Source: Oceanicoccus sagamiensis (GTDB taxonomy: Bacteria > Pseudomonadota > Gammaproteobacteria > Pseudomonadales > Dasaniaceae). From it: a stretch of DNA of 64,000 bases. The stretch's first letter is position 1, and every line of letters begins with the position of its first letter. This document shows, piece after piece, positions 35,050 through 51,503 of the stretch. The stretch spans positions 2,356,001 to 2,420,000 of the forward strand of contig NZ_CP019343.1 of NCBI RefSeq assembly GCF_002117105.1, given 5' to 3'. The position numbers were made by a program, and so were the translations under genes. The notes beneath the pieces are model-generated. The model saw nothing but the letters and a program-made list of their open reading frames with translations, searched no databases and had not been told where the DNA came from.

Positions 35050-37590
35050 ATGTCTAACCGTTTTCATATAGCGGTTGTTGGTTCAGGCCCGGCGGGCTTG
35101 AGCGCGGCGGGTCGCGCTGCTTTTTATGATAAGCAGAAACGTGAAGCTGACCCCTCTCATGACTATACCCACGTCCTCCTTGAATCCTTTGAAAAACCGG
35201 CCAAAACCATCCAGCGCTACCAAAAGGGCAAGCATGTTATGGCTGAGCCGGGTTTTTTGGATCTGCGTAGTGATTTTGACTTTGCTGCCGGTAGCCGTGA
35301 AACCATCCTGGGTGGCTGGGAGCAGCGGGTAGACGATAGCGACGTTAATATTCGCTATAACACCGAAGTGACCAAAATTGAGGGCCAAAAAGGCGATTTT
35401 GCCCTGACCCTTAAAGATGGTTCAGTCATTCATGCAGACTATGTGATTTTGGCGATTGGCCTTGAGGGTAACCCGCGTAAATTGGGTGTGCCCGGCGAAG
35501 ACTTTCCACTGGTTCAATATACGCTGGATGATCCTACCGCCCATAGCGATGAAACTGTGGTCGTGGTGGGTGCCGGTGACTCCGCCATTGAGAATGCGCT
35601 GGGTCTGGTCAAGCAGAATAAAGTGGCCATCCTGAATCGTCGCGATGAATTTTCCAGGGCGAAGGAGGGCAACCTGAATGCCATACTCGCCGCCAATGCT
35701 GATGCCTCCGTACCACTGACCTGTTACTACAGCACCAGTGTTAAACACATTACCCAGACCGAAGAAGGCGGCTATGAGATTACCCTCAATACCTCAGAGG
35801 GTGAAGAGAGCTTTGCCTGTGACCGGGTGATTGCCCGTTTGGGTGGTGTACCGCCCAGAGGTTTTGTGGAGTCGATTGGTGTTGAGTTCCCCAACAAAAA
35901 GCCCGACGCAATCCCTGAGTTAACCGGCAAATATGAATCCAATGTTGAGGGTTTATATATTATCGGCTCTCTTGCCGGTTACCCGCTCATTAAGCAGGCG
36001 ATGAACCAGGGCTATGATGTTGTCGAATATATTCTCGGCCACGACATCAAACCCGCCGACCACCCTTTATTAGAGCTGCAATTTAATTTGCTGCCCTACC
36101 TGAAAGATGTTGATGATCTCGTTACCCTGTTTCAGCAGCGTATACCCATGTTCCGGGAAATGAACGCTCTGCAGTTTCGTGAGTTGGTGATTGAAAGCGA
36201 CATTTTGGTGAGTTACGAAGATGGCCCGATGCTGGAGGATGTGCAGTCCAAGGCCAAAGCGTTGGAAGAAAAACTGGCCCAGCGTGATCCGCGCCCGCGT
36301 TTTACTAAAATTATTCGCGCCGGTGATGCTATCTATCGCGATGGAGACTTTACCAACTCCTTCTTCACCATTGTTGAAGGCGAAGTCAAAGTGGATATGC
36401 CCGGTATTGCCAAGCCGATGACCTATACCCGCGGCCAGTTTTTTGGTGAGGCCAGCTTGCTATCTGGCAGGCCCCGTGAAGGCAATGCCATTGCCGGCAA
36501 AGATTGTATTATTGTAGAAACACCCCGTCGTACCATGGTTAAACTGATGAACTCCAATGATGAAGTTCGCGATGGTATCGATTTAATTTTTATTGTTCGC
36601 GCCCTGCAAAAACATGTGGCGCCGCAATTATCCGTGGCAAAACTCAGCGAGTTTGCAGCATCGGCTGAGCTGCGTACATATAAAGCCGGTGAGGTGTTAT
36701 TTAAGCAGGGTGAGGTTGGTGACTCGCTGCATATTATTCGCCGTGGCTCGGTGAGTTTATTGCGAGAAACCAACGGCGAAAAAATTGTAGTGGCCCAGCA
36801 CCAGTCCGGAAAAATTGTGGGCGAAATGTCTTTGATGGGTGATCCCATTCGACGCGAGACCGCCACCGCCGCTGTATTGACCGAAACGATAGAACTCGAT
36901 AGAAAATCCTTTATGCGCCTGGTAAAAGCAGATACCTCCCGGATTGAAGTGCTGCAAAGCAATGCCAGTGAGCGCGCAGTGACCCATACCACCATGGAGG
37001 CCCGCCCCGAAGTGGGTTCGGTGATGCAGTTCTTAATGGACGAAGGTTTGGGTGAGGCAACTAACTGCTTAGTGATTGCAGAAGACCTTTGTGTCGGCTG
37101 TGATAATTGTGAAAAAGCCTGCGCCGAAACCCATAATGGGATTTCTCGTTTGGATAGAAAGTCCGGTGCCTCCTACGGCGAATTACATATCCCTGTTTCC
37201 TGCCGTCATTGTGAACAGCCCCACTGTATGAAAGATTGCCCACCCAATGCGATTCACCGGGCATCCAGTGGTGAGGTGTTTATCGACAACAATTGTATTG
37301 GTTGTGGTAACTGCGAATCTAACTGCCCTTACGATGTCATTAAGCTGGCCTACGATGCACCGAAAAAACCCGGCTTCTGGAGTTGGTTATTGTTTGGTTC
37401 CGGTTCAGGCCCAGGCGAAGAGCTTGGCTATAGCCCAGATGAAGTCGCCAAGAAGAAAGGCAAAAAAGCCGTTAAGTGTGATGCCTGTATGAGTCAGCCC
37501 AGTGGCCCGGCCTGCGTTAACTCCTGCCCGACAGGGGCCGCAGCCCGGCTATCGCCCGAACAATTTCTGCAACTGGTAGAGAAGCGCTAA
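35050..37590 (+). CDS. Flavoprotein reductase - 2x cyclic-nucleotide-binding - polyferredoxin fusion
   Basis: A multidomain redox protein of 846 residues, no signal peptide, probably cytoplasmic at the membrane. Residues about 1-330 are a thioredoxin-reductase-like FAD/NAD(P)H module (VVGSGPAGLSAAG and VVVVGAGDSAIENA) without the redox CXXC of true thioredoxin reductases, closer to YpdA-type proteins. Two cNMP-binding folds follow at about 415-510 (GQFFGEASLLSGRPRE) and 530-650 (GKIVGEMSLMGDPIRRE). The last part (about 680-845) carries ferredoxin motifs CVGCDNCEKAC, CRHCEQPHCMKDCP, CIGCGNCESNCP and CDACM...CVNSCP, enough for about four [4Fe-4S] clusters. ATG 35050 is preferred (AGGGG upstream). 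The next gene begins 3 bases after its stop. It should pass NAD(P)H electrons to the membrane under cNMP control. Confidence 0.88.
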   Translation: MSNRFHIAVVGSGPAGLSAAGRAAFYDKQKREADPSHDYTHVLLESFEKPAKTIQRYQKGKHVMAEPGFLDLRSDFDFAAGSRETILGGWEQRVDDSDVNIRYNTEVTKIEGQKGDFALTLKDGSVIHADYVILAIGLEGNPRKLGVPGEDFPLVQYTLDDPTAHSDETVVVVGAGDSAIENALGLVKQNKVAILNRRDEFSRAKEGNLNAILAANADASVPLTCYYSTSVKHITQTEEGGYEITLNTSEGEESFACDRVIARLGGVPPRGFVESIGVEFPNKKPDAIPELTGKYESNVEGLYIIGSLAGYPLIKQAMNQGYDVVEYILGHDIKPADHPLLELQFNLLPYLKDVDDLVTLFQQRIPMFREMNALQFRELVIESDILVSYEDGPMLEDVQSKAKALEEKLAQRDPRPRFTKIIRAGDAIYRDGDFTNSFFTIVEGEVKVDMPGIAKPMTYTRGQFFGEASLLSGRPREGNAIAGKDCIIVETPRRTMVKLMNSNDEVRDGIDLIFIVRALQKHVAPQLSVAKLSEFAASAELRTYKAGEVLFKQGEVGDSLHIIRRGSVSLLRETNGEKIVVAQHQSGKIVGEMSLMGDPIRRETATAAVLTETIELDRKSFMRLVKADTSRIEVLQSNASERAVTHTTMEARPEVGSVMQFLMDEGLGEATNCLVIAEDLCVGCDNCEKACAETHNGISRLDRKSGASYGELHIPVSCRHCEQPHCMKDCPPNAIHRASSGEVFIDNNCIGCGNCESNCPYDVIKLAYDAPKKPGFWSWLLFGSGSGPGEELGYSPDEVAKKKGKKAVKCDACMSQPSGPACVNSCPTGAAARLSPEQFLQLVEKR

Positions 37591-37593
37591 GCG

Positions 37594-38487
37594 ATGCATG
37601 ACAATATTTTAAAATTTAAAAACGGCCGCTACTTTTTTATTACCGTAGCGATGCTCGCCATTTGTTTTGCTATCTACGCCACTCAGGGTGGTAAACAGCC
37701 TGCCAATGGCGGCACCTGGCAGGGTTATGTATTAGGTACGCTGGGGGCGGTATTAATTGTTTGGTTAACCGCGCTGGGCAAGCGCAAACGCAACTATAGT
37801 TCGCGGCTGGGTTCGATGCAGGGTTGGGCCTCTGCACATGTTTATCTGGGAACCAGTTTGCTGATAGTGGCTACCCTGCATTGCGCGGTGCAGTTTGGCT
37901 ATAACGTGCATACTCTGGCCTACGGCTTAATGTGCCTGGTTATCTTTAGTGGCTTTGGCGGTGTCTATGTCTATATGCGTTACCCCAGTTTAAGTGCGCG
38001 CAATCGGGCCAATAGCTCCCGTGCAGAATTGTTTGCCGAGCTTGCAAGCCTGAACGAAAGCGTTCGCAAGCTGAGTAAAAATTGCGACCCGCAAGTTCAT
38101 GCGGTCGTTGATAGCGCTATCGATAGAACCAATATTGGTGGCGGTGCGGTGGCCCAGCTTATGGCTATTGATGCATCGCAAATGTTAAAAGAGGCTGATG
38201 AAGACAGCTTGCGCACGGCGGCATCCAGAGTCAGCAATAAAGACCAGCAAGCCGTGGTCGATTTTATCGCCCAGCGCATTCCTCGCAGCCGTAAACAGGA
38301 TGAATCTGCCACCTTACAAGAATTGCTGACGATGTTGTGCCGCCGTCAGGCGCTGCTGCGAAAAATTCGTAAAGATATTCAATTACAGGGCTGGATGCAG
38401 ATTTGGCTGTATCTTCATATACCGCTAACCATTGCTTTATTGTTTGCATTGGCGGTACATATTATTGCTGTATTTTTTTACTGGTAG
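37594..38487 (+). CDS. Membrane protein, candidate haem b electron carrier
   Basis: A 297-residue protein with about five membrane helices: two near the N-terminus (YFFITVAMLAICFAIYA; WQGYVLGTLGAVLIVWLTAL), two with histidines (ASAHVYLGTSLLIVATLHCA; YGLMCLVIFSGFGGVYVYM) and one at the C-terminus (IWLYLHIPLTIALLFALAVH). A helical soluble domain of about 150 residues lies between helices four and five. Histidines inside helices resemble cytochrome b haem ligands, but I cannot place the family. It lies 3 bases after the flavoprotein gene and 9 before the FHA-cytochrome gene, which fits a membrane relay between them. Confidence 0.72.
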   Translation: MHDNILKFKNGRYFFITVAMLAICFAIYATQGGKQPANGGTWQGYVLGTLGAVLIVWLTALGKRKRNYSSRLGSMQGWASAHVYLGTSLLIVATLHCAVQFGYNVHTLAYGLMCLVIFSGFGGVYVYMRYPSLSARNRANSSRAELFAELASLNESVRKLSKNCDPQVHAVVDSAIDRTNIGGGAVAQLMAIDASQMLKEADEDSLRTAASRVSNKDQQAVVDFIAQRIPRSRKQDESATLQELLTMLCRRQALLRKIRKDIQLQGWMQIWLYLHIPLTIALLFALAVHIIAVFFYW

Positions 38488-38496
38488 ACCCACGCT

Positions 38497-40236
38497 ATGG
38501 ATTTTTTATTACGGGAAGTAACGACTGATCAGGGTATGGTCGTTTATCAAGATACCGAGCTGACGGCTGATACTGTCAGTATTGGTAGCGCGGGCGACCA
38601 GCTGATCCAGGTTCGCGGCGGTAAAATCCAGTCGGCCCATGCGGTGATTAAAAACGCTGGTGGCCAGCTTACGATTACTGGCGTCAATAAAAATACCTTT
38701 GTAGTCAATGGCGAGGTGGTTAAAAGCCATGCGCTATCGGTGGGCGATATTGTTGAGTTTGAATCCCATCAACTTACAGTGGCCCAGCCACCGGCGGGTT
38801 TTGATGCAGCCTGTGAAATCACCATTGACCATGATTTACAGGACCATGCACTGGAGTCGGTTTATCGTACCAGCCTTGCCGATACCACCTTGGGAAAAAG
38901 ATTACCGGCCTATTTGTTAAGTGCTTTAGTCGTGGTAACGGTTTTACTGTGGCCGATTTCCGCGCACTTTATGCGGGACAACCCCGTTGACCCGGCCACC
39001 GGTCATCAGCAATACAGTAAAGCAAGTGCCGGTGATGTGTTGTGGTCCAGTGGCCCCTTGCTGCCCGCTCACCAGTTAGAAATTGGTGATGATTGTTCAG
39101 CCTGTCATAAGGTTCCTTTCCAAACGGTGCAGGATGAAGCCTGTATTGATTGTCACCAGGGTGTGGCTGATCACTTTGCCTATGGTGATACTGCCCATGG
39201 TGGTGAGTTGGGGGCTCTGCATATTGATCTGGGTGTTACTGAATGTCAGAGCTGTCATAAAGAACATAATGAACCCGCGGCAATGGTGGTCAGTGCCGAC
39301 TCGCTGTGTGTCGATTGCCATGATGACCCGCTAAAAGTCTCCGCATCTTCTGCCGGGGTAGAGGCGGTAACCGGTTTTGATAGTGATACACATCCGGCCT
39401 TTAAACTGAATTATTTATTGCCGAAAATTGTTGAGAAGGGTACCGGCGTTGGTGTTGAGTGGTACAACCAATTGCATCTTGAAGGTTCGGCGCAGGCGGA
39501 TTTGTCCAATTTAAAATTCCCTCACGACGTGCACCTTGATGCAGAAAAAGTTCAAACGGCTGGCACTGCCGAAGCGATGGTCTGTAGTGATTGTCACACC
39601 TTAAAATCTGATAACGAACATTTTGAATCGATTACCATGGAGCAGCATTGTTCTTCCTGTCACGATCTTAATTTTGATGTGGCTGACCCCGAGCGTGAGT
39701 TGCCCCATGGTGACCCCCGCACCGTGGTACAAACCATTGAAGAACACTTTGTCCGCGTTTACACCGACCCCGACTATAAGCCTGCGGGTTCAGAGCGTCG
39801 TCGACGTCGCCCTGGCCAGTCAGTGGGTGCTGAAGCCTGTAAAGAAAGTCCCTTTGATTGCGGTATGAAGCGCGCAACAATCGAAGCGGGTATTCAATTT
39901 ACCCAGCGTGGCTGTGTGACTTGTCATGAAGTCTCTGATAATAATTCCGACGATATTTATGCCCGCTGGACTGTGTTGCCGGTCAAAATAAATCACGATT
40001 GGTATGGCCGTGCTATTTATGACCACGCCAGCCACTTAACCCAGCGCGGCAAGACCGAGAATCAGGTCTGCTCCAGTTGTCACGAGGCTGGGCAGTCAGC
40101 TAGTAGTACCGATGTGTTGATTCCGGGTATTGAAAATTGCCAGAGCTGCCACGGTGATGTGTCAGTCGACAATAAGGTATTGGTTAATTGCGTGTCTTGT
40201 CATGCTTTCCATCCGCCGACTAAAGAACAGCTGTAA
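38497..40236 (+). CDS. FHA domain - TM helix - decaheme cytochrome c fusion
   Basis: A 579-residue protein with an unusual layout. Residues about 1-105 form an FHA-like domain (IGSAGDQLIQV, IQSAHAVI, NKNTFVVNG), somewhat degenerate because the usual GR is GS. A single membrane helix near 147-166 (LPAYLLSALVVVTVLLWPIS) follows. The rest, predicted periplasmic, contains ten CXXCH haem motifs: CSACH, CIDCH, CQSCH, CVDCH, CSDCH, CSSCH, CVTCH, CSSCH, CQSCH and CVSCH. With FHA inside and hemes outside, it could link Ser/Thr phosphorylation state to periplasmic electron transfer. It sits between the membrane relay and the outer-membrane genes. Confidence 0.9.
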   Translation: MDFLLREVTTDQGMVVYQDTELTADTVSIGSAGDQLIQVRGGKIQSAHAVIKNAGGQLTITGVNKNTFVVNGEVVKSHALSVGDIVEFESHQLTVAQPPAGFDAACEITIDHDLQDHALESVYRTSLADTTLGKRLPAYLLSALVVVTVLLWPISAHFMRDNPVDPATGHQQYSKASAGDVLWSSGPLLPAHQLEIGDDCSACHKVPFQTVQDEACIDCHQGVADHFAYGDTAHGGELGALHIDLGVTECQSCHKEHNEPAAMVVSADSLCVDCHDDPLKVSASSAGVEAVTGFDSDTHPAFKLNYLLPKIVEKGTGVGVEWYNQLHLEGSAQADLSNLKFPHDVHLDAEKVQTAGTAEAMVCSDCHTLKSDNEHFESITMEQHCSSCHDLNFDVADPERELPHGDPRTVVQTIEEHFVRVYTDPDYKPAGSERRRRRPGQSVGAEACKESPFDCGMKRATIEAGIQFTQRGCVTCHEVSDNNSDDIYARWTVLPVKINHDWYGRAIYDHASHLTQRGKTENQVCSSCHEAGQSASSTDVLIPGIENCQSCHGDVSVDNKVLVNCVSCHAFHPPTKEQL

Positions 40237-40282
40237 GTTTACTAATAAGAAAGCAACAAAGGATTTAGAACAGGAATCTAAA

Positions 40283-42346
40283 ATGAACTTTCGAAAACTA
40301 TGTCTGGCCCTGCCAATGATTGCTGCGCTAGCAGCTTGTTCAGGTGGTAGCTCTACTGCCGATAAAAGCGGCACCGCAGAGAATGTTGATAATGGCTCCA
40401 GTGGCTGTGATGGGTCCTGTGCGGATACACCGACCAGCCTGACTACCAGCGATGTAGAAACCATTCTGGCGCAGGCTATTGCCGAAGCGCAGGCTCAGGG
40501 TATTGATGCCACGATTGCTGTCTCCGACCGCGTAGGTAATGTGTTAGCGGTTTACCGTATGGGTGATCCGGCAAGCCGTCGTGTGTTATTAGCAACGCAA
40601 ACGGATGCTGATGGCAATGCTGTGATCGATAGCGGGCTGGAAGGTATCGCCTTGCCTACCGGTGGCGTAGCGCTAAATATTGATGATCAGGCCGCGATTG
40701 CCAAAGCGATTACCGGTGCTTATCTGTCTTCCGAAGGCAATGCCTTTTCTACTCGTTCTGCCAGCCAGATTGTGCAGGAAAATTTTAATCCGGGTGAAAC
40801 CGATCAGCCCGCCGGTCCCTTATTTGGTGTGCAGTTTAGCCAGCTTTCCTGTTCTGATTTTACTGTGGACAATACGGCGATTAGCCATGGTCCCAAACGT
40901 TCCCCGCTAGGTTTATCAGCCGACCCTGGTGGTTTGCCACTGTATAAAAACGGTACACCAGTAGGGGGCATTGGCGTTATTGCCGATGGTTTATATTCGC
41001 TGGATATATCCATTGCAGATAGTGACCGCAATGCCGATGAAATGATTGCCTTTGCTGGCACATATAATTATTCAGCCCCGGTTGATCGCCGCGGTGACCG
41101 TATTACCGTTGAAGGTAAAACCTTCCGTTTTAGTGATGTCGGTTTTTCAGACCTGATGGCCGACCCGGAAACGGCAACACCCTATGCCAGTATTCCTGCG
41201 GTTACTGGCGCCTTAATCCCTGTGTTTGGTTATAGCGATGGCACTATCCGCGGTGGTGTCGCTTTTGGTCAGCCCGCCTCAGGTATTCGTCAGGATACCG
41301 CGGGTTTCCCTGCGGGTTTAGATGCGTTTATTTTTGTTGATGCCGCTAATGCCAACCGTTATCCGGCAGTGGCTGGCAGTGATGGTTTGATGTCCGCCAA
41401 CGAAGTACAGGTCGTTATGGAAGAAGCGCTGTCTATTGCCAATAGAGCGCGTGCACAAATTCGTCGCCCTCTTAATAGTCAGGCCAGAGTCACTATTACC
41501 GTGGTGGATACCGCCGGTGAAATTCTCGGCATGGTACGTACCCGAGATGCCCCTGTGTTTGGTGCGGATGTTTCCGTGCAAAAAGCGCGTACAGCGGCTT
41601 TCTTTTCAGCATCAACCGCCGCGGATTTTTTAAACGCGCAGCCCGATGCTAAATATTTTGATATTTCAGATGATGCTCTGGCGTTGACCACTCGTGAAGC
41701 TGTGGTGATCGGTGACTATGTCACTGCAGTTCAGGATTTTATTCCCGATCCTAATGCATTGACCGATGGCGCTTTCGCTTTTTCTGATCGCGCGGGCGGT
41801 AACTTATCACGTCCGTTTTATCCCGATGGTCTGGAAGGCAATCCGCCAGGGCCCTTTAGTAAACCTGCCGGTTCCTGGAGTGTTTTCTCTACCGGTTTGC
41901 AGTTGGATATGATTATGAATGGCATTATCCAGCACGTATTAAGTGTGGCTACCGAAAATGCCGGTTTAACCGGTGCCATCCCCGATATTAATGATCGCTG
42001 TTCCGGTGTGGACTTTACCCCTGAGACATTAGCCTTTGTCGCCACTGGTACCAATAATCAAATGGCCAACGGTAGCCAGATTTTCCCCGGTAGTGTCCCC
42101 ATCTACCGCGGCAGTACACTGATTGGTGGCATTGGTGTTTCCGGTGATGGTATTGATCAGGACGATATGATTAGTTTTCTCGGTGTGCACAATGCCGCTG
42201 AGCGTTTAAATGGTTCCATCAATAATGCGCCAGCGGATATACGCGCAGACAAGTTAACTCCACAGGGCGTGCGTTTACGATTTATTCAGTGTCCACAGGC
42301 ACCGTTTTTAGACAGCGACGATGACAATGTGTGTGAAGGGAAATAG
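40283..42346 (+). CDS. Lipoprotein with two GlcG/HbpS-like haem-binding domains
   Basis: A 687-residue lipoprotein: signal peptide ending LAAC (lipid cysteine 19) and a Ser/Gly/Cys-rich tether. Two domains resemble the GlcG/HbpS family. The first, after about residue 50, has VETILAQAIAEAQAQGIDAT and LPLYKNGTPVGGIGV; the second, after about 370, has VQVVMEEALSIANRARAQIR and VPIYRGSTLIGGIGVSGDG. The family binds haem or small oxidised ligands and occurs beside cytochromes and dehydrogenases. ATG 40283 is chosen because AGGA lies 7 bases upstream and the lipobox is then correctly placed; an upstream in-frame start at 40130 lies inside the previous gene. Function in this locus is inferred: haem delivery or an outer-membrane accessory. 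Confidence 0.78.
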   Translation: MNFRKLCLALPMIAALAACSGGSSTADKSGTAENVDNGSSGCDGSCADTPTSLTTSDVETILAQAIAEAQAQGIDATIAVSDRVGNVLAVYRMGDPASRRVLLATQTDADGNAVIDSGLEGIALPTGGVALNIDDQAAIAKAITGAYLSSEGNAFSTRSASQIVQENFNPGETDQPAGPLFGVQFSQLSCSDFTVDNTAISHGPKRSPLGLSADPGGLPLYKNGTPVGGIGVIADGLYSLDISIADSDRNADEMIAFAGTYNYSAPVDRRGDRITVEGKTFRFSDVGFSDLMADPETATPYASIPAVTGALIPVFGYSDGTIRGGVAFGQPASGIRQDTAGFPAGLDAFIFVDAANANRYPAVAGSDGLMSANEVQVVMEEALSIANRARAQIRRPLNSQARVTITVVDTAGEILGMVRTRDAPVFGADVSVQKARTAAFFSASTAADFLNAQPDAKYFDISDDALALTTREAVVIGDYVTAVQDFIPDPNALTDGAFAFSDRAGGNLSRPFYPDGLEGNPPGPFSKPAGSWSVFSTGLQLDMIMNGIIQHVLSVATENAGLTGAIPDINDRCSGVDFTPETLAFVATGTNNQMANGSQIFPGSVPIYRGSTLIGGIGVSGDGIDQDDMISFLGVHNAAERLNGSINNAPADIRADKLTPQGVRLRFIQCPQAPFLDSDDDNVCEGK

Positions 42347-42355
42347 AGCGAAGTC

Positions 42356-44221
42356 ATGATGAAAAAAATATCTATAACAACCGCTGCTGCGCTTGGCTTA
42401 TCGATGTTGTTGACGGCCCCAGGCAGTACTGCCCAGACGCAAGATAATTGTGTAGAAGCCTCTCAGGCTGAAGAGAGTGGGCGCAGTGCCAAACGCCGTC
42501 GTTCCAGCAAACAGGTTATTTGTGAGCCCAGTGTTGAGACGGAGGTGGTGAGCAAAAGCGAGAGTTCCAGCAGGCGCAGAACTGCCGAGGCTGACCCCTC
42601 AAGAGCGCGCAAGCCCAATCCGGTTTCGCCCATTCCACGCCCCCGTGTTGAAGACTATGTTGCCTCAGTGCCGATACCGGACCGCTGGCGTATTGTCGAT
42701 AGCCTGGGCTATGAAGATAACTGGTACGACCCTTATCACCGCAATACCTTAAAAGGGGATAAGCCGGTTTATGGCGAAGACTGGTTTTTTAATCTCGGCA
42801 TTATTTCTGATTCGGTTTATGAAAAGCGTGAAGTGCCCACGCCAGTCGGTGGTAGCTCAACTCGCAAGCCCGGAGGTATCGATGTATTTGGTTCTTCCGA
42901 TCAGTGGCTCCTTAACCAAAATCTGGCGATGGAATTTGTCTGGTATAAAGGCGATACCGTATTTCGCCCACCCGATTATGAATTTCGTATTATCCCGGTG
43001 ATCAACTATAACTACGTTAATCTGGATGAAGTGCAGGGCATTAATGTTGACCCCGGTCGTGATGATACCCGCCATGATCACCATATTGGTTTGCAGGCAG
43101 CCTTTGTTGATGTGCACTTGCGCAATGTATCAGACCGGTTTGACTTCGATAGTCTCCGTGTTGGTATCCAGCCCTTTAGTTCAGATTTTCGCGGCTTCTT
43201 ATTTCAGGATAACCAATTTGGTATACGCCTGTTTGGTAATCGCGACAATAATATTTTTCAATACAATCTTGCGCTGTTTCAGCGGATGGAAAAAGATACC
43301 AATAGTGGCTTAAACGACCACGGTGAATCTTTCCGCGACGACTATGTGTTTGCCGCCAATCTGTATTGGCAGGATTTATGGGTTAAAGGCTTTATGTCCC
43401 AGGTGACATTAATTCATAACCATAATGATGAAGAGGGCGAATTCTTTTTTGATAATAACGGCTTTATTGCCCGCCCGGCTTCACTGGGTCGAGAAGTGCC
43501 CCGTGGTTATGACGTGACCTATATCGGTTATAACGGTGATGGCCATATCGGTCGCTTAAACTTAACCGCCTCTGCTTATTTTGCCTTTGGTGAAACTGAC
43601 CCCGGTGTATTTGTAGATGAAAAAGTTGATATAGAAGCTGCCTTTTTCGCCGCTGAACTATCGATGGACTTTGATTGGTTTAGACCCCGCGCCTCCTTTC
43701 TTTACGGCAGTGGCGATGATGATCCCTTTGATGATAAAGCTACCGGCTTTGACGCTATCTTTGAAAACCCGCAATTTGCCGGCAGTGATAACAGTTATTG
43801 GATTCGGCAAAATGTTCCGTTGATTGGTGGTGGTCGTATTGCGCTATCGCAACGTAACGGTGTGTTAAATTCCATGCGCTCATCAAAAGAGTTAGGCCAA
43901 TCTAACTTTACCAACCCCGGTATTATTTTAATGGGATTGGGTTTTGATATGGATCTGACCCCTGAGTTGAGATTAAGCGGTAACTTTAATCAATTATATT
44001 TTGATGAAACCGAAGTGCTGGAAGTCGCCCGTAATCAGGGCAGCATCGATGATGAAATCGGGCAGGACTTATCGCTGGCGCTGATTTACAGACCGTATAT
44101 GTCACAGAACGTGGTACTGAGAGCCTCCTATGCGCGCTTACTACCCGGTGATGGTTATGATGATTTATTTGAAGATGAAGACGCCGATTACTTCCTCTTC
44201 AATCTTATTTTAACGTATTAA
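42356..44221 (+). CDS. Outer-membrane beta-barrel, putative porin of a porin-cytochrome complex
   Basis: A 621-residue exported protein. After a signal peptide (TTAAALGLSMLLTAPGSTA) comes a basic, low-complexity segment at about 40-95 rich in Arg, Lys and Ser (AKRRRSSK, SSSRRRTAE, RARKPNP). The rest is a beta-barrel with alternating hydrophobic strands and terminal LFNLILTY. It lies between the lipoprotein and the decaheme genes, where MtrB- or PioB-like porins lie in known conduits, but no sequence motif of MtrB is visible (no CXXC near the start). Alginate-export-like barrels are another possible relation. The start is 9 bases after the previous stop. Confidence 0.75.
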   Translation: MMKKISITTAAALGLSMLLTAPGSTAQTQDNCVEASQAEESGRSAKRRRSSKQVICEPSVETEVVSKSESSSRRRTAEADPSRARKPNPVSPIPRPRVEDYVASVPIPDRWRIVDSLGYEDNWYDPYHRNTLKGDKPVYGEDWFFNLGIISDSVYEKREVPTPVGGSSTRKPGGIDVFGSSDQWLLNQNLAMEFVWYKGDTVFRPPDYEFRIIPVINYNYVNLDEVQGINVDPGRDDTRHDHHIGLQAAFVDVHLRNVSDRFDFDSLRVGIQPFSSDFRGFLFQDNQFGIRLFGNRDNNIFQYNLALFQRMEKDTNSGLNDHGESFRDDYVFAANLYWQDLWVKGFMSQVTLIHNHNDEEGEFFFDNNGFIARPASLGREVPRGYDVTYIGYNGDGHIGRLNLTASAYFAFGETDPGVFVDEKVDIEAAFFAAELSMDFDWFRPRASFLYGSGDDDPFDDKATGFDAIFENPQFAGSDNSYWIRQNVPLIGGGRIALSQRNGVLNSMRSSKELGQSNFTNPGIILMGLGFDMDLTPELRLSGNFNQLYFDETEVLEVARNQGSIDDEIGQDLSLALIYRPYMSQNVVLRASYARLLPGDGYDDLFEDEDADYFLFNLILTY

Positions 44222-44238
44222 AATTGGATATTAATACA

Positions 44239-47200
44239 ATGACTGCGTCCAAAAAAATGATAACAAGCTCCGGAAAAATATTGCAGGCTGCTTTATTGCT
44301 AAGTGTTGCATTAACCGCCAATGCCGCTGGTATGTACAAAAAAGTGGAGCGCGATTATGTGACTGCGCCGAATGCGCCAGCGTCACAATCGCAAGCCGAA
44401 GTTGACCAGAAAAGTAATAGCTGTATTAGCTGTCATACTGATTCGGATAGTAAAACCATGCATACCAACCCCGGTGTCAAACTGGGTTGTACCGATTGTC
44501 ATGGTGGTAACACCTCCGTGTTCCGTCCGGACGGTAGCGAGAATGGGCAGGAGCCTTATCTGGCTGCAATGAGTGAGGCTCATATTCTTCCGCAGGTTCC
44601 CGACAAGTGGCCCACTCCCAGCAGTCGTAACCCGGAAAGAACCTACACCCTGTTAAACCATGAAAGCCCTGAGTTTATTCGTTTTATTAACCCTTCGGAT
44701 TATCGCATTGTTAATGAAGCCTGTGGCGCTTGTCACCAAGCCACTATTGAAGCCTCTATTCGCAGTTTGCACTCCACGGGTGCGATGTTATGGGGTGGCG
44801 CTTCTTATAATAATGGTATTCTGCCGAATAAAAATTACTTCCTGGGTGAGTCTTATACCCGCGATGGTAAGGCGCAGTTGATTAAGGGGCCAGTAATCCC
44901 TGATGAGTTTAAGCAAGCGGCAGCGGATAAAGGGGTAATTGAAGCCCTATATCCATTACCGGCCTGGGAGACCATAAAGCCTGGTGATATCTTCCGTGTA
45001 TTTGAACGCGGAGGTCGCAATATTACCAACCTGTTTCCAGAAACCGGTTTGCCCAGCAACCTTGGCCAAATTCAGCGCTTGGAAGAGCCGGGTCGTCCCG
45101 ATATCAAGCAGTCGAACCGAGGACCGGGAACCGGTGGCAGAATTTCAGTGCCGGTTATCAATATTACCAAAACCCGTTTAAACGATCCTTTTACCTGGTT
45201 TATCGGTACTAACGATCAGCCTGGTGATTACCGCAACTCCGGTTGTGCCTCTTGCCACGTAGTTTATGCCAATGACCGCGACCCGCGTCACTCAGGCCCC
45301 TATGCACAATTTGGGCACGATGGTCAGTCCATCACCAAAGACCCTACCATTGATAAAGAAGAAAAGGGCCATCCACTACAGCATACCTTTACCCGGGCAA
45401 TCCCCACCAGTCAGTGCATGATTTGCCATATGCACCAGCCCAATATGTTTATGAATACCTTCCTCGGTTACACCATGTGGGACTATGAGTCCGACGCACC
45501 GCAAATGTGGCCGGAGCAACAGCAGTATCCTTCCCATAAGGAAACCCGCGATGTATTAGATCGCAACCCGGAAGGTGCGGCGCCACGGGGCAAGTGGGCC
45601 GATGTTGAGTTCCTGAAAAAAGTTTGGGATAACAATGACAAGATGCAGGATACGCAATTTGCCGACTACCACGGTCATGGTTGGAACTTCCGCGCTATTT
45701 TTAAACGCGACCGCAAAGGTAATCTGTTAGATGCCGAAGGTGCAAAAGTTGCCGATGATGATCCAAAGAAATTTGAAAAAGCCGTACATATGTCATCCAT
45801 CCATGTCGATGTTGGTATGCACTGTGTCGATTGTCACTTCTCACAGGATAACCACGGTAATGGCCATATTTATGGTGAAGTGGCCTTGGCGGTAGAGGTG
45901 GATTGTAAAGATTGTCACGGTACCTCCAAAGAGTATCCCAATCTGTATACCTCCGGTCCCGCCGCTCTTGAGGGCGGTGCCGACCTGTCATTATTGCGCA
46001 CTCCCGATGGTCGTCGTCGTTTCGAGTGGATCGATGGTGAGCTGTTCCAGCGCTCTTCTTTATACCCGGACAAAGAGTGGAAGCTCAGTCTGGTTAAAGA
46101 CAGCGTGACCGAAGGGCACGCCGAGTACAATAAGAAAGCCGCCCGCGCAAAATTGATGAGCAAAGATACCGACAAGCAAAACTGGGGTGAGGATGTGCCC
46201 GCTGAAGATTTGGCGCACTCCTATGATGATATGGAGTGTTATACCTGCCATACCTCATGGACCACCAGTTGTGGCGGTTGTCACCTGCCGATTGAAGCGA
46301 ACTGGAAAACCGAACGCCATCACTATGAGGGCGGTGAGAGTCGTAACTATGCCACCTATAATCCGCAGGTAGCTCGCGATCAAATCTTTATGTTAGGTCG
46401 CCGTGGCCCGGCTAAAGGTGGCAAGATAGCACCGACCCGTTCAACCTCGGCGTTAGTTTTGTCTTCTACTAATTCCAACCGTGAGAAGATCTATATCCAG
46501 CAGCCGCCCATCGCGTCCAGTGGTTATAGCTCGCAGGCCTTTAACCCGCACTTCCCACATACTGTGCGTAAAACAGAAACCAAAACCTGTAGCGATTGCC
46601 ACGTTTCCAAAGATAACGATAACAACGCGATTATGGCGCAGCTCTTAATGCAGGGTACCAACTTTATTAACTTCGTCGGCTATAACGCCTGGTTAGGTGG
46701 TGACGGAGAAATCAGTGCGGTACAGGTGACGGAGTGGGATGAGCCGCAAGCGGTTATCGGCAGCTATCTGCATAAATATGCCTACCCTGATTGGTATCAG
46801 GACCATTTGGATAATTTAATGGTGTTGCAAAAAGTGCATAAACACTCTGCCGGTACAGCCAACTGTCTGCAACTGCGAGGTGAGTACCTCTATGTGGCAG
46901 AGGGCAGTGATGGTATGCAGGTCTACGATGTAGCCAGTATTGCCAACAAAGGTATTTCCCAGCGTATTATTACTGCACCCTTTAGTGCTCTAGGCCATGA
47001 TGCCCATATCAGCAGTGAAAATGCGACCTGTGTTGCCTTGCCGTCTAACCAGCCAATTGCCCCGGCGCAAAACCAGGGCGATTTGATGCGTATCGACAAT
47101 CAGGAGCAACCGTTTCACCCCATCTATACCTATGCGGTGATTACCGATGCGGTGGAAGGTTTGATTTTGGTAAATATCGATACCTTTATGGATGGTGAGC

Positions 47201-47976
47201 CGCGCAATAACTTCCTTGAGCGCGCCTTAACCTGGAATGAAGGTGGTGTTCTCGATGGCGCCCGCCATGTCACTGTTGGTGGCCACTACCTCTATATCAC
47301 CACTGATACCGGTGTGGTGATTGTCGATGTGGATAATCCCTTGGAGCCAAGCGTAACCGCTACTATACCAATGACCGGTGCTCAGGCTACGGCGATTCAG
47401 TTCCGCTATTTATTTGTTACCGATAGCGAAGGTCTGAAAGTGGTTGATATCAGTAATATCCAGCAGCCCCTAATGATTGCCAATAACACCATCGCCATTA
47501 ACAATGCTTACAAAATGCATTTGGCCAGAACCTATGCCTATGTGGCAGCGGGTGACGAAGGTGTGGTGATTGTCGATATCACTCAGCCAGAGGCGATGCA
47601 GGAGTACCAGCGATTTAATGCGGATGGTGAACTTAAAGATAGCCGCGATGTGATTGTGGCGACAACTAACGCGTCATTAATTGGCTATGTCGCTGATGGT
47701 AGCGGTGGCTTAAAAGTCTTGCAGCTAACCTCGCCAGAGAGCCAGCCCAAGTTCTATGGCTTTAGCCCTGATCCCAAGCCGCAGTTAATTGCCAAATATG
47801 CAACCGGCAAACCGGCATTAAGTTTGTCTCGGCCACTGGAGCGTGACCGTGGGGTGGATGAAACCGGAGGGCAAATCTCTGTCTTTGGCCGCCGTGGTTC
47901 AAGGCCCTTTAATAAGCAGGAAATGGAAAAAATGTACCTGAATGGCGACGGCAAGCCCTGGTTTGTTGAAGATTAA
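44239..47976 (+). CDS. Decaheme cytochrome c with LVIVD-type beta-propeller
   Basis: A large secreted redox protein of about 1245 residues. Signal peptide (LQAALLLSVALTANAAG), then ten CXXCH sites: CISCH, CTDCH, CGACH, CASCH, CMICH, CVDCH, CKDCH, CYTCH, CGGCH and CSDCH, spread to about residue 795. The C-terminal 400 residues carry LVIVD-type repeats (GMQVYDVASI, GLILVNIDTF, GVVIVDVDNP, GLKVVDISNI, GVVIVDITQP, GLKVLQL), which should fold as a beta-propeller. ATG 44239 gives a good signal peptide; an upstream TTG at 44224 is in frame, and neither has a strong ribosome site. It is the best candidate for the surface-exposed terminal electron carrier of the locus. Confidence 0.88.
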   Translation: MTASKKMITSSGKILQAALLLSVALTANAAGMYKKVERDYVTAPNAPASQSQAEVDQKSNSCISCHTDSDSKTMHTNPGVKLGCTDCHGGNTSVFRPDGSENGQEPYLAAMSEAHILPQVPDKWPTPSSRNPERTYTLLNHESPEFIRFINPSDYRIVNEACGACHQATIEASIRSLHSTGAMLWGGASYNNGILPNKNYFLGESYTRDGKAQLIKGPVIPDEFKQAAADKGVIEALYPLPAWETIKPGDIFRVFERGGRNITNLFPETGLPSNLGQIQRLEEPGRPDIKQSNRGPGTGGRISVPVINITKTRLNDPFTWFIGTNDQPGDYRNSGCASCHVVYANDRDPRHSGPYAQFGHDGQSITKDPTIDKEEKGHPLQHTFTRAIPTSQCMICHMHQPNMFMNTFLGYTMWDYESDAPQMWPEQQQYPSHKETRDVLDRNPEGAAPRGKWADVEFLKKVWDNNDKMQDTQFADYHGHGWNFRAIFKRDRKGNLLDAEGAKVADDDPKKFEKAVHMSSIHVDVGMHCVDCHFSQDNHGNGHIYGEVALAVEVDCKDCHGTSKEYPNLYTSGPAALEGGADLSLLRTPDGRRRFEWIDGELFQRSSLYPDKEWKLSLVKDSVTEGHAEYNKKAARAKLMSKDTDKQNWGEDVPAEDLAHSYDDMECYTCHTSWTTSCGGCHLPIEANWKTERHHYEGGESRNYATYNPQVARDQIFMLGRRGPAKGGKIAPTRSTSALVLSSTNSNREKIYIQQPPIASSGYSSQAFNPHFPHTVRKTETKTCSDCHVSKDNDNNAIMAQLLMQGTNFINFVGYNAWLGGDGEISAVQVTEWDEPQAVIGSYLHKYAYPDWYQDHLDNLMVLQKVHKHSAGTANCLQLRGEYLYVAEGSDGMQVYDVASIANKGISQRIITAPFSALGHDAHISSENATCVALPSNQPIAPAQNQGDLMRIDNQEQPFHPIYTYAVITDAVEGLILVNIDTFMDGEPRNNFLERALTWNEGGVLDGARHVTVGGHYLYITTDTGVVIVDVDNPLEPSVTATIPMTGAQATAIQFRYLFVTDSEGLKVVDISNIQQPLMIANNTIAINNAYKMHLARTYAYVAAGDEGVVIVDITQPEAMQEYQRFNADGELKDSRDVIVATTNASLIGYVADGSGGLKVLQLTSPESQPKFYGFSPDPKPQLIAKYATGKPALSLSRPLERDRGVDETGGQISVFGRRGSRPFNKQEMEKMYLNGDGKPWFVED

Positions 47977-47988
47977 GCCGGGGGCATG

Positions 47989-48035
47989 TATGGCTGTGAA
48001 CGAATGCTCGTTTGCACAAAACTTTCACAGTCATA
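47989..48035. repeat. Imperfect inverted repeat after the decaheme gene
   Basis: TATGGCTGTGAA pairs with TTCACAGTCATA with one mismatch, separated by 23 bases. No T tract follows. It could be an mRNA end hairpin or an operator. Confidence 0.5.
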
Positions 48036-48059
48036 TAGCCAATAATTGCCTATACTAAT

Positions 48060-48085
48060 TTGATCGGTCGGCTTGATCGGTCGGC
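48060..48085. repeat. Exact tandem 13-base duplication before the pentaheme gene
   Basis: TTGATCGGTCGGC occurs twice head to tail, immediately after TATACT (48051-48056), a likely -10 box. The pair lies about 115 bases before the pentaheme gene. It may be a regulator site for a second transcript within the redox locus. Confidence 0.75.
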
Positions 48086-48199
48086 GCAAGCCTTGGGGTA
48101 TCACGCCTACGTATCTGTCGAGCTGTGGTAGCTCATATCAACGGATTAATAACGGCTGTTTAATAACAACTATTTCATACAAGAAGGGAGCTGGGTGCC

Positions 48200-49500
48200 G
48201 TGATCGTACTCAACATAAAAGCTTTATTATCGGCCTTGGCACTATGGGCCCTGCTTTGCTTACAGGCTAATGCTTTGCCTCAATACGATGATGATAAGCA
48301 TCTGGGTGTTGCCAGTTGTGCCAGTAGCGTTTGCCACGGTAAGAGTAAGCCGGTCGAGGGCGAGAATGTGATGCTCAATGAGTATCGCACCTGGTCAACC
48401 GAAGATCGCCATGCCAGAGCCTACCAGACTTTATTATCTAAAGAGTCCAAGCGTATAGCCCGTAATCTTGGTCTGAAAAGCGCCCATACCGCGGATATTT
48501 GTCTGGACTGCCATGCTGATAATGTCGCCAACGATAAGCGCGGCCCCAAATTCCAGATTAACGATGGTGTGGGTTGTGAAGCCTGTCATGGCGGGGGCGA
48601 GCAGTGGATAGAAAGCCACACCGAAGAGGGTGTTACCCATCAGCAAAATCTTGATAAAAATATGTACCCTACAGAGGATGGTTTGGCTCGGGCCAAGCTG
48701 TGTCTGTCCTGCCATTACGGCACCCGAGATAAGCTCACCACCCATAAAATAATGGGCGCAGGTCATCCTCGCCTGAGCTTTGAATTGGAAACCTTTACGG
48801 CCAATCAGCCCTCCCACTATTTGGTGGATGCCGACTATAAACAGCGCAAGGGCGAATTCAGCGGCTTTACCATGTGGATTGTCGGTCAGATTGAAACCGC
48901 GAAAGCCAGTTTAGAGCTGATGGATGCCTACCTGATCAGTGAAAACCAGTTGGTGCCAGAGCTGTATTTCTATGATTGCCATGCCTGTCACCACCCCATG
49001 TCCGATACCCGCTGGGGCCAACTGAAGCTAAAGCCGGCCTTCCTCCGGGTGTGATTCGTTTAAATGACGCCAATTTCCTGATGTTGCTGGAATTAACCCA
49101 GATAGTGTTGCCCGCTGAAAACGCCAAGCTTAAGCAGGCGGTTGTCGCTATGCACAAAGGTTCTTTGACGACCAAATCATCACTGAAAAAAGCGGTTACT
49201 GACTTATCGGCGGTGGTTGCCCGTCTGGATCAGCAGTTGACTGCTACTGCTTATAGCGACCAGCAGACCAAAGCGGTAAGAGCCCGCCTGTTAACCCAGT
49301 CTGCCAAAGGGCAGTACCGTGATTTTGCTGCGGCTGAGCAGGCCTTTTTGGCGATTGAAAGTATCACCATTGCATTGAACCAGGATGCTGATTTGGAGAA
49401 ACAACTCAACTCGTTGTACGATACTTTGGAAAATGAAGATGGCTTTAGCCCGCAAACCTTTAAGTCGGTTGCTGCTAAGGTGAAAAGTGCATTTAAATAA
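48200..49500 (+). pseudogene. Pentaheme cytochrome c, frameshifted near 49035
   Basis: Signal peptide (KALLSALALWALLCLQANA), then haem sites CASSVCH (a CX4CH variant), CLDCH, CEACH, CLSCH and CHACH. The first frame ends at 49054 in a nonsense tail (AFLRV) just after HPMSDTRWGQ. The next frame continues without gap as LPPGVIRLNDANFLMLLELT and a helical C-terminal domain to 49500. Inserting one G in the GG at 49035-49036 fuses them into about 433 residues, as in related multiheme proteins whose PGVIRLND-type segment directly follows the last haem. The GTG at 48200 has AGGGAG 9 bases upstream. It may carry electrons in the periplasm for the locus. Confidence 0.8.
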
Positions 49501-49589
49501 GATGGCACGTGTTTGATAGCTAGCTCTAACAATAAGTAGTACAAAGAGCGTTTGTACTGAGATTAGGACGTACTGAGACCCTAAGCACT

Positions 49590-50432
49590 ATGGCTTTTAT
49601 ACAGTTCGATGCCAAAACCCACCCGGGCAGGGTGAGGGACCATAACGAAGATAATATCTTTGGCAGCGCTGACTCTAATCTTTGGGTGGTAGCCGATGGT
49701 ATGGGTGGCCATGCCTGTGGTGAAGTAGCCAGTGAAATTGTGGTCAAACGACTGCGCTCCTCTTATAGTGAGGGCGAGACATTATCGGCAGCCATTGAGT
49801 TAGCTCACGAGGCGGTGACTCAGGAAGCTGAAGTTAACCAGCGCGCCAAGGGTATGGGGGCTACGGTTGTCGCCATGTCGACGGCCAATCAGCAATATAC
49901 TATTTCCTGGGTGGGTGATAGCCGAGCTTATCGCCTGCGCAATAACCAGCTGGAGCTACTGACCCGCGATCACTCCTATCTGGAGTGGCTAAAAGACAAC
50001 GGCATTACCGTCGAAGAAGCCCGCAAACATCCCAAGCGTAATGTGATCACCCAAAGTATTGGTGTGGGTGAGCCCAATCCGGACACCGTCACCGGTAGCT
50101 TTGAACCCGGCGACCGCTATTTATTATGCAGTGATGGCCTTAACGACGAGCTGACCGATGAAGAAATTTGTGCCTTATTGCGCTCCAGCGAGAACAGTGA
50201 CGTCGTCACCCAAACACTGATCGATGCGGCACTGGATAGTGGTGGCAGAGATAATATCAGTGTGATTGTGGTGGATATCGACCCGCAAAGCCGTAAGGCG
50301 GCACCGGTGGTATCCGCTGATGCTTTAAAAAGTGCATTAAAGTCAGACAGCGCTAAAAAAACCTGGCTGCCGATTGTCGGTGGGGTGGCCGCGGCCATTA
50401 TCTTTGCTGTGGTTTTAGTGATGTTGAAATAG
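49590..50432 (+). CDS. PP2C-family Ser/Thr protein phosphatase, C-terminal membrane anchor
   Basis: Metal-dependent protein phosphatase of 280 residues. Motifs: DHNEDNIF, VADGMGGHACGEVAS, SWVGDSRAYRL, LLCSDGLNDELTDEE and GRDNISVIVVDI supply the metal-binding aspartates. Unlike soluble Stp, it ends in a membrane helix (WLPIVGGVAAAIIFAVVLVML), so it is tail-anchored at the inner membrane. It is followed 79 bases later by a double-FHA protein with the same kind of tail. Together they look like a local dephosphorylation and phospho-reading module for the cytochrome locus. No kinase is in the locus; one is at 6.7 kb. Confidence 0.93.
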   Translation: MAFIQFDAKTHPGRVRDHNEDNIFGSADSNLWVVADGMGGHACGEVASEIVVKRLRSSYSEGETLSAAIELAHEAVTQEAEVNQRAKGMGATVVAMSTANQQYTISWVGDSRAYRLRNNQLELLTRDHSYLEWLKDNGITVEEARKHPKRNVITQSIGVGEPNPDTVTGSFEPGDRYLLCSDGLNDELTDEEICALLRSSENSDVVTQTLIDAALDSGGRDNISVIVVDIDPQSRKAAPVVSADALKSALKSDSAKKTWLPIVGGVAAAIIFAVVLVMLK

Positions 50433-50511
50433 AATTTCTGACGCCAGGCGTTGGCTTGGTGCAATACAGTAGAATGTTTAACTTAGATATAGAGACAAAT
50501 AGGTAACTGCA

Positions 50512-51477
50512 ATGACATCAAGTGATACTCCCCAAGCCAGTGGCATTATGCTGAAATCCCTGGACGGTGAAGAGCCCATAGAATTGAGCGGCGAGATGGT
50601 GGTTGGCCGGGGTTCTGCATCTGACTTTGTGATTGATCAGGAGAGGCTGTCCAGAAAACATGCGCGCTTATCCGAAGGTGATGGCGCGGTATTGGTGGAA
50701 GATATGGGCTCTACCAATGGCACTTTTGTGAATGGTAATAAAGTAGAGAGTCCGACTCTGGCAAAAAATGGCGATGTGATTAAATTTGATACCTTCGCTT
50801 ACGAAGTTTGTGTGATTGGCGGGGTAGATGCCACCGATGCCACCGTATCCAATGCGGCGGTTCACGAAGAAGTACTGGAAGCTAAAACACAGATGTTCCA
50901 GGCGCCTAAAAGCTGGGCGCTGGATGATAATAAGTCGGCGGAAGGCACCCAGGTGATGTCTCTGGATATGCTCAAGCAAAGTGCGCCTCCTGAAGCTGGT
51001 GAGGGCAATATTGCTGAGGATATCAGCACCGATGTGCCGGTATTGGTGTGCACCAGTGGTGAATTACAAGGCAAAACCTTTAAATTCAATACCCGTGAAA
51101 AACTCACCAAGTGGGAAATTGGCCGTGCGGATAGTTGTGAAATTCAAATTGATGATGGCAGTGTATCAACCAACCATGCTCAGTTGATTCATGAAGGTCG
51201 GCGCTGGAAGCTGATTGACCTCATGTCGGCTAACGGAACCTATGTTAATGACAACAAAGGTCTGACCAGTTACTTAAGCTCCGGTGATAAAGTACGCTTT
51301 GGGCAGGTTGAGTTTATTTTTAAATTGAATGCTGATGGTGACACGACCGATCCAGTGGCCAAGCCAGTTAAAGAAGCTAAATCGGCTGCATCGTCAGGTG
51401 GTGGTTTACCTACCTGGGTACTGGCTGTGGGCGCTTTTGTCGTGACAGCGGCAGTACTTTACTTTGTCTTAGGCTAG
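50512..51477 (+). CDS. Tail-anchored protein with two FHA domains
   Basis: A 321-residue protein. FHA1 (about 22-95) has the full signature VGRGSASDF, LSRKHARL, STNGTFVNG. FHA2 (about 180-270) has IGRADSCEI, VSTNHAQL, SANGTYVND. A low-complexity linker with several threonines (KTQMF, GTQVMSLD) joins them and could be phosphorylated. The C-terminus is a single membrane helix (PTWVLAVGAFVVTAAVLYFV). It binds phosphothreonine peptides by family knowledge. It lies after the PP2C gene and before a terminator, ending the locus. The FHA-cytochrome and a kinase are the obvious candidate partners. Confidence 0.92.
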   Translation: MTSSDTPQASGIMLKSLDGEEPIELSGEMVVGRGSASDFVIDQERLSRKHARLSEGDGAVLVEDMGSTNGTFVNGNKVESPTLAKNGDVIKFDTFAYEVCVIGGVDATDATVSNAAVHEEVLEAKTQMFQAPKSWALDDNKSAEGTQVMSLDMLKQSAPPEAGEGNIAEDISTDVPVLVCTSGELQGKTFKFNTREKLTKWEIGRADSCEIQIDDGSVSTNHAQLIHEGRRWKLIDLMSANGTYVNDNKGLTSYLSSGDKVRFGQVEFIFKLNADGDTTDPVAKPVKEAKSAASSGGGLPTWVLAVGAFVVTAAVLYFVLG

Positions 51478-51503
51478 CTCCCAAGCTCTGGTTTTACCCG
51501 ATA

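Follow-up and report, generated by a model that had tools for sequence, protein, structure and literature searches.

Well-studied extracellular electron conduits such as Mtr and Omc draw their electrons from quinol. Several described gene sets come closer to the one considered here; the papers cited by PMC number were available in part, and what is said of them concerns those parts. The PCC3 and PCC4 sets contain an inner-membrane protein (IMP) with five transmembrane (TM) segments, SGXXG and two WX3HX13H motifs, and an upstream gene encodes an Fe-S protein of pfam13247; for PCC4, electron flow is proposed to run inward to quinones (He et al., 2017; PMC5566968). In a metagenome study of June 2026, 11 clusters place a 4-5 kb decaheme cytochrome gene next to a porin of about 20 strands, with a ferredoxin-NADP reductase nearby in seven of the 11; gammaproteobacteria are among the metagenome-assembled genomes (MAGs) that bear porin-cytochrome sets, and electron export is suggested (PMC13264449). 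A table for Gallionellaceae includes a 10-haem "Forkhead-associated protein", with 27 in a last column whose header lies outside the available part (PMC10734462), and an Mtr-type cluster is described in PMC13322032. Here we analyse a 64,000-nucleotide stretch of the Oceanicoccus sagamiensis genome (NZ_CP019343.1, positions 2,356,001 to 2,420,000; hereafter the window), in which a block of nine named proteins probably forms a conduit that spans the envelope, exports electrons drawn from NAD(P)H and is controlled by cyclic nucleotides. The set is real and conserved, a variant of the porin-cytochrome conduits that has hardly been described; its electrons would enter from NAD(P)H in the cytoplasm, and sensors of cyclic nucleoside monophosphates (cNMP) are built in. 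Its genes, lettered A to J, are as follows; G and H are the two pieces of one protein.

35044..37590, + strand: A, 848 aa, predicted cytoplasmic NAD(P)H flavoprotein with two cNMP-binding domains and a C-terminal Fe-S part
37594..38487, + strand: B, 297 aa, predicted five-TM di-haem b-type cytochrome of the PCC3/PCC4 IMP class
38497..40236, + strand: C, cytoplasmic FHA-like domain, one TM segment (136-154) and a periplasmic decaheme cytochrome c
40283..42346, + strand: D, HbpS/GlcG-type lipoprotein with lipobox Cys19 (Pfam HbpS-like, 86 bits)
42356..44221, + strand: E, predicted outer-membrane beta-barrel, 21 strands listed in the model, two of them just 3 residues long
44224..47976, + strand: F, exported decaheme cytochrome with a C-terminal LVIVD beta-propeller
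48200..49054, + strand: G, N-terminal piece of a C554-type pentaheme cytochrome, 4 CXXCH and 1 CX4CH (Pfam Cytochrome_C554)
49048..49500, + strand: H, C-terminal piece of G in another frame; the 436-aa G of loci L146 and L151 aligns over both pieces
49590..50432, + strand: I, Stp1-like PP2C phosphatase with a C-terminal TM segment (260-278)
50512..51477, + strand: J, two FHA domains (Pfam FHA twice, 135 bits) and a C-terminal TM segment (303-321)

The block occupies window positions 35044-51477 of a single-contig 4.47 Mb genome, all on the + strand. An earlier note, made from the letters of the window, had named the nine proteins; all are found in the place and on the strand it gave, and its gaps of 3 bases between A and B and 9 between B and C hold. 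The further gaps measure 46 bases (C-D), 9 (D-E), 2 (E-F), 223 (F-G), 89 (H-I) and 79 (I-J). The short E-F gap sets a barrel gene beside a multihaem cytochrome gene, the arrangement by which porin-cytochrome sets are generally recognised. D most likely starts at 40283, at its lipobox signal, and not at the TTG with which the listed open reading frame (ORF) begins further upstream.

The set recurs, largely in order, far from this genome. A scan with F found 98 relatives, and 80 loci were kept from gammaproteobacterial, alphaproteobacterial and Nitrosomonas records (names as titled). Counts by tblastn were preferred over ORF picking, because the ORF picker masks genes in GC-rich loci; over the 80 loci, many of them truncated, they label A in 54, B in 54, C in 56, D in 63, E in 72, G in 71, I in 26 and J in 26. 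For gene order, the 56 loci in which 9 kb or more precede F were used: A-B-C-D-E-F runs on one strand in 44 and lacks only D in 4, D-E-F stands with the A-B-C side elsewhere, opposed or outside the stretch in 7, and F stands alone in 1. A class-level draw of 276 genomes, the window genome included, gives A in 12, C in the same 12, E in 10 and F in 9; the A count requires the cNMP/Fe-S part, so that 29 of 41 matching genomes were excluded as having the flavin part only. One of the 12 A genomes, G332, has just the cNMP-to-Fe-S part of A, at a contig end, and it is also the tenth E genome, with a truncated E match (profile 34-533 of 603). The hypergeometric chance of A falling with C in this way is 3e-21, uncorrected for kinship. 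At phylum level (299 genomes), A is found in 10 and F in 7, all 7 lying within the 10; an order-level draw of 145 genomes gives C matches in 13 at E 1e-3, a part of them weak or confined to FHA. The earlier note had staked its proposal on co-occurrence in other genomes, and the kept order and the shared 12 genomes of A and C are what is found; its picture of a single conserved set that spans all layers, from a flavoprotein using NAD(P)H in the cytoplasm out to the surface of the cell, draws support from the same co-occurrence. We rejected a chance neighbourhood, given the co-occurrence of A, C, E and F and the order kept across loci. Among the records is one from a MAG titled Klebsiella pneumoniae (L063), which carries the cluster and sits among proteobacterial MAG records in the F tree; its title is probably wrong.

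Some alphaproteobacterial loci, L058 among them, and L184, also from the phylum, have the A-B-C side oriented against (G)-D-E-F. In genome G221 (L141, 5089-16277), C-B-A-G adjoins genes for another G-like protein, for a protein of 542 aa that matches no Pfam family and for a pentaheme cytochrome of 593 aa, and F has no match there; in G423 and G449, A is present with C near by (L179, L180), again with no F match. On the strength of these opposed sides and of A and C occurring without F, A-B-C looks like an inner-membrane module and D-E-F like an outer one. As an observation in its own right, G221 possibly has a different outer-membrane part attached to the same inner module.

The same incomplete sets are the natural argument for a redox relay confined to the periplasm, the barrel next to it serving transport and no electron passing the outer membrane: G169 and G221 have A and C but no F match, G423, G449 and G543 have A without F, and sets of IMP and multihaem cytochromes without porins are noted in PMC5566968. 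Yet E and F accompany A and C in 10 and 9 of the 12 genomes, E is labelled in nine-tenths of the F loci, the A-B-C-G side of G221 has a 5-haem protein and another protein of barrel size as neighbours, G543 retains D beside A and C, and the genomes without F include drafts. We consider such a relay very improbable.

The conduit that we favour would work as follows. Electrons from NAD(P)H, more probably NADPH, would enter the FAD of A and pass to its four [4Fe-4S] clusters, then to two b haems of B that would carry them across the inner membrane, and on to the decaheme of C and the pentaheme G in the periplasm. From these haems they would reach F, placed in or on barrel E together with lipoprotein D, and F would hand them to an acceptor at or beyond the outer membrane, for which Fe(III)/Mn(IV), flavins, humics and O2 are candidates. 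The two cNMP domains of A, which separate its flavin part from its Fe-S part, would act as a gate where electrons enter from the cytoplasm, and I and J would add a phospho-layer in part of the family. The case for a conduit is strong, export is its likely direction, and gating by cyclic nucleotides is plausible.

The domains, haem and cluster ligands and topology signals on which this scheme rests are features of the sequences themselves, and were followed through alignments of five families (29 rows from the window and 33 complete loci, with near-copies and some over-long ORFs removed). The flavin part of A spans residues 8-323, the cNMP domains lie at about 422-500 and 544-629, and the C-terminus is NrfC/DmsB-like with Cys sets for four [4Fe-4S] clusters. 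Pfam matches (Pyr_redox_2/3, cNMP_binding twice, Fer4_7/Fer4_11) and solved structures (Fe-S subunits, cNMP domains, thioredoxin-reductase-like flavoproteins) agree with this division, and the Fer4_11 (PF13247) match reaches 37.7 bits against a cut-off of 26.2. Sixteen Cys, every one inside the Fe-S part, are invariant in all 29 rows, and since they suffice for four [4Fe-4S] clusters, that complement is feasible. The flavin part contains no CXXC, which makes a thioredoxin-reductase role unlikely, and we rejected it. In the segment NRR..FxR, which we take to resemble the NADPH motif of thioredoxin reductases, R199 and R205 are invariant (29/29). Separately, a flavoprotein of mostly about 420-500 aa that matches solely the flavin part of A occurs in 29 of the 276 genomes (loci L123-L140).

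Its presumed partner in the inner membrane is equally constrained. Exactly five His of B are invariant over the 29 rows (82, 96, 106, 275 and 289), four of them forming two HX13H pairs, and B carries both WX3HX13H motifs (W78/H82/H96 and W271/H275/H289) and SGXXG (S119/G120/G123), all invariant save S119, kept at 90% or more; the Pfam search gave B no ferric-reductase family match. Protein C (Pfam FHA, Cytochrome_C7, Cytochrom_c3_2) has 10 CXXCH motifs and exactly 10 other invariant His. It scores 27.5 bits against TIGR03508, whose cut-off is 192.2, and so does not classify as a DmsE/MtrA-type decaheme; by sequence it matches among solved structures two cytochrome c family proteins weakly (E 6e-4 and 9e-3), the rest being unrelated or weaker. 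CcmF is encoded in the window genome. The invariant ligand sets would suit a functional chain that leads from FAD through Fe-S and b haem to bis-His c haems. A further candidate multihaem gene appears at L074, a 545-aa minus-strand ORF with 21 CXXCH motifs.

The same inner-membrane parts could serve electron uptake of the kind suggested for PCC4, with extracellular Fe(II), Mn(II) or a cathode as the source and the quinone pool or NAD(P)+ as the destination. B bears the PCC3/PCC4 IMP signature, A holds the pfam13247 Fe-S domain named for PCC4 subgroup II, the 10-haem Forkhead-associated protein is tabulated for iron-oxidising Gallionellaceae (PMC10734462), and two Nitrosomonas loci carry the cluster. 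Sequence alone gives no direction; uptake would nonetheless require NAD(P)+ reduction from Fe(II), uphill in redox and against the membrane potential by established bioenergetics, and many of the named hosts belong to heterotroph genera (such as Alcanivorax, Marinobacter, Steroidobacter and Phenylobacterium). The membrane potential, inside negative, favours outward electron flow. Uptake is thus an unlikely use of the set, and export through it the likelier one.

On the outer side, F has a signal peptide, 10 CXXCH motifs and an LVIVD match of 69.6 bits; besides the 10 CXXCH His, 14 further His are invariant over the 29 rows. Its model (residues 51-1250) combines a propeller of high pLDDT (predicted local distance difference test) with a low-scoring haem half (mean 58.8). 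The recognised structures among the Foldseek matches listed are propellers, and the F sequence finds a single match among solved structures (E 0.56). The AlphaFold model of E has a mean pLDDT of 70.8, and E has no Pfam family at E 0.01. In G420, a genome of the same genus, F is divided into two overlapping ORFs (L151, 4472-8265).

A dedicated surface reductase would arrange these three proteins differently: F would act on one substrate, such as an oxyanion, haem or an iron chelate, that E and D handle, reductive iron or haem uptake being one form. D is HbpS-like, of a haem-degrading family, and E matches AlgE and Occ-type transporters, Occ porins being among its closest Foldseek matches; F weakly matches ExtM, ExtN and ExtO, NCBIfam models named for selenite/tellurite reduction, but these matches are short and far under cut-off (52 of 800; 24-25 of 200 bits). 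Nor is a free haem site evident in F, since its invariant His suffice for bis-His ligation of all ten haems, and upstream of A no Fur-like site scores above shuffles (TonB receptors were not searched for). We rate this arrangement as quite unlikely.

Pentaheme G, proposed earlier as part of the conduit, is present in its haem motifs, 4 CXXCH and one CX4CH, which are kept in all 56 G relatives of 380-530 aa; the window gene is split between two frames rather than intact. In L146 and L151, the two nearest relatives inspected, G is one 436-aa ORF. The frame change, near 49.04 kb, is either a true lesion or a sequencing error.

Control by cyclic nucleotides finds support within A. In the phosphate-binding cassette of domain 1 (FGE..L.SGR.R), Glu469 and Arg478 are present in 29/29 rows; in domain 2, Arg603 is present in 29/29 and Glu594 in 20/29. 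We take Glu plus Arg to be the ligand motif of this cassette. Genes of cyclic-nucleotide metabolism also occur near the cluster, in counts that carry no background rate and come from queries taken from loci where such genes had already been noticed: class III cyclase sequences in 8 of the 80 loci (L028, L045, L068, L070, L071, L072, L088 and L080, the last cut to a fragment by a contig end) and in 4 of 15 further fetched loci (L142, L147, L181, L182), and CpdA/SpdA-like calcineurin-type phosphoesterases in 6 of 80 (L058, L068, L070, L071, L072, L088) and 3 of 15 (L182-L184). The cyclase lies about 8 kb from the nearest cluster gene in L045 and about 4 kb in L181. A Pfam scan of five cyclases found CHASE2 fusions in L070, L071, L147 and L182, and none in L142. 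The neighbouring phosphoesterases match Metallophos (Pfam), and the four scanned have SpdA and CpdA as best models, below the NCBIfam cut-offs (137-158 of 400; 66-106 of 225 bits). In G239, a cyclase is within a cassette inserted between A and B; at L147 (4837-17690), the cassette between these genes holds a CHASE2 class III cyclase, a TPR protein, a FecR protein and a 2251-aa lipoprotein-like protein. FecR-like matches occur near the cluster in 7 of 80 loci. Oceanobacter (L028), G239 and G169 are separate settings for such cNMP genes. The cNMP link that the earlier note had drawn is therefore strengthened, by an invariant domain-1 ligand motif and by cyclases and CpdA/SpdA-like genes nearby in several lineages.

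A bolder form of this idea is a cNMP-gated, NADPH-driven respiratory or "NADPH-oxidase-like" machine across both membranes, in which cAMP/cGMP on A would control flow directly and not via transcription, with a local cyclase/phosphodiesterase pair in some lineages, the PP2C/FHA layer in others, and aerobic heterotrophs as hosts. We offer it tentatively, as possible rather than probable. Aerobic heterotrophs of this kind are not known for extracellular electron transfer.

The phosphorylation layer has a narrower distribution. I or J is labelled in 26 of the 71 F-bearing rows, the window included (37 are without, 8 without room), these being the rows, out of 81, with F long enough for a tree. On this tree, built by a quick method, 3 changes account for I/J, where shuffling gives about 20 on average; 24 of the I/J-labelled rows fall in a single clade of 26 rows, two Marinobacter rows stand elsewhere, and L031, the one member of the clade labelled as without, shows a J match by tblastn. 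Judged from these sequences, a phospho-layer is likely within the I/J clade, and not family-wide. I scores 217 bits against NCBIfam NF033484, slightly below the cut-off of 230. Both FHA domains of J show GR, S-x-x-H and NGT in the window translation, which we take to be the phosphothreonine-contact motif (Arg after Gly, Ser three before His, Asn of NGT). In C, PF00498 is detected in 19 of the 29 proteins, 17 of the 29 rows keep the Arg and 2 the contact Ser, and the Asn column (66) is Leu, Ala or Gly in 18; window C has the Asn, and Ser in place of Arg. We rejected C as a proven phosphothreonine reader, these contact residues being mostly lost. A kinase-like ORF beside I and J was not seen by eye, and no kinase search of the window or genome was made. 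The phospho link suggested earlier is thus the weaker one: it is likely for the clade with the PP2C and FHA proteins, J being canonical, and falls short for the family at large, where I/J is present in part and the C contacts are mostly lost.

Two further features flank the block:

33236-34579, divergent from A: NADP-specific glutamate dehydrogenase (gdh), 748 bits against a cut-off of 536
51503..51530, + strand: terminator-like hairpin 26 bases 3' of J, 12 pairs (9 G-C) and a T-rich tail, a consensus match only

The gdh gene adjoins, or is one gene from, cluster genes in L027, L069, L079, L147, L151, L182, L183, L184 and some alphaproteobacterial loci. NADPH is favoured over NADH as the donor of A, as far as sequence can indicate. 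The hairpin has the highest pair and G-C pair counts among 31 matches and is the sole intergenic match on the + strand; a transcription unit ending at J would fit it, as a consensus match. Farther on, window 54369-55394 encodes a DUF169 protein with a match to PCP_red (protochlorophyllide reductase 57 kD subunit).

Several observations weigh against a cyclic-nucleotide-controlled export conduit. A is found in 2 of 7 genomes of the window's genus and 3 of 10 of its family, so the gene set is accessory. G is broken in the window by the frame change. The best Foldseek match of E is the polysaccharide exporter AlgE (E 5e-16, TM 0.65 on target), and the place of F in the envelope is not fixed, because its haem part is poorly modelled. 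Upstream of A, a consensus scan for Fur, CRP and FNR gave nothing above shuffles, the gdh-A gap holds no + strand sigma-70-like match, and a second transcription start or unit could lie within the F-G gap. Cyclase and phosphodiesterase genes near the cluster are confined to a minority of loci, again as counts without a background rate, and most alphaproteobacterial cases may go back to one inherited event; the window locus has neither, and three class III cyclase matches, two strong and one weak, lie elsewhere in the genome. In 48 of the 80 loci chosen for a gdh survey, the gene is present in 23 of the genomes and within 1.5 kb of the cluster in only 3.

If the reading is right, cNMP sensors built into an NAD(P)H-fed entry enzyme would place electron export under direct signal control. 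The cluster occurs in records titled Marinobacter, Alcanivorax, Steroidobacter, Sphingomonadaceae, Phenylobacterium and Nitrosomonas, groups that, to our knowledge, are seldom considered in extracellular redox chemistry, and the set is a candidate for unexplained surface reduction of metals, flavins or superoxide by aerobes.

The earlier note had called the locus a candidate new system. This holds to the extent that the available parts of PMC13264449, PMC5566968 and PMC10734462 report no tested function for the set, and fails in that the class of B and a similar cluster are already described. Among the papers listed, we recognised none joining these parts to a function in the literature searched, which mostly left out subscription papers and wholly left out preprints; in the same literature, we found nothing on multiheme or decaheme cytochromes combined with LVIVD, with cNMP-binding or with FHA and cyclic nucleotide. 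Membership of the Mtr/OmcA group was rejected, since the barrel and decahemes match none of those families in Pfam or NCBIfam. What the set presumably shares with Mtr, Mto and Pio is the plan: inner-membrane electron entry, periplasmic cytochromes, a barrel and an outer decaheme. The entry differs, being a cytoplasmic NAD(P)H flavoprotein in place of CymA-like quinol oxidation.

In this respect, the inner half recalls the ferric reductases and NADPH oxidases (FRE/NOX), in which NAD(P)H, FAD and two b haems on HX13H pairs follow one another over one membrane, and the resemblance of HX13H to the FRE/NOX membrane domain has been pointed out (PMC5566968). Here, unlike FRE/NOX, four [4Fe-4S] clusters would intervene and c haems would continue through a second membrane. 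With PCC4, the set shares B as a five-TM IMP with SGXXG and two WX3HX13H, the upstream pfam13247 protein of subgroup II, supplied by A, a porin, and one 5-haem and one 10-haem cytochrome; it departs from PCC4 in having cytochromes of 10, 10 and 5 haems rather than 4, 5 and 10, and in its propeller, FHA-like decaheme and cNMP domains. Group 1 of PMC13264449 looks like the same cluster from its account of E, F and A, a large decaheme beside a porin of about 20 strands with a reductase nearby, a likeness in description: in the window, F measures 3.75 kb and E has 21 model strands, against a decaheme of 4-5 kb and about 20 strands there. Cyclic nucleotides, FHA, a phosphatase and LVIVD, all part of the locus described here, are absent from that paper's main text in the part available.

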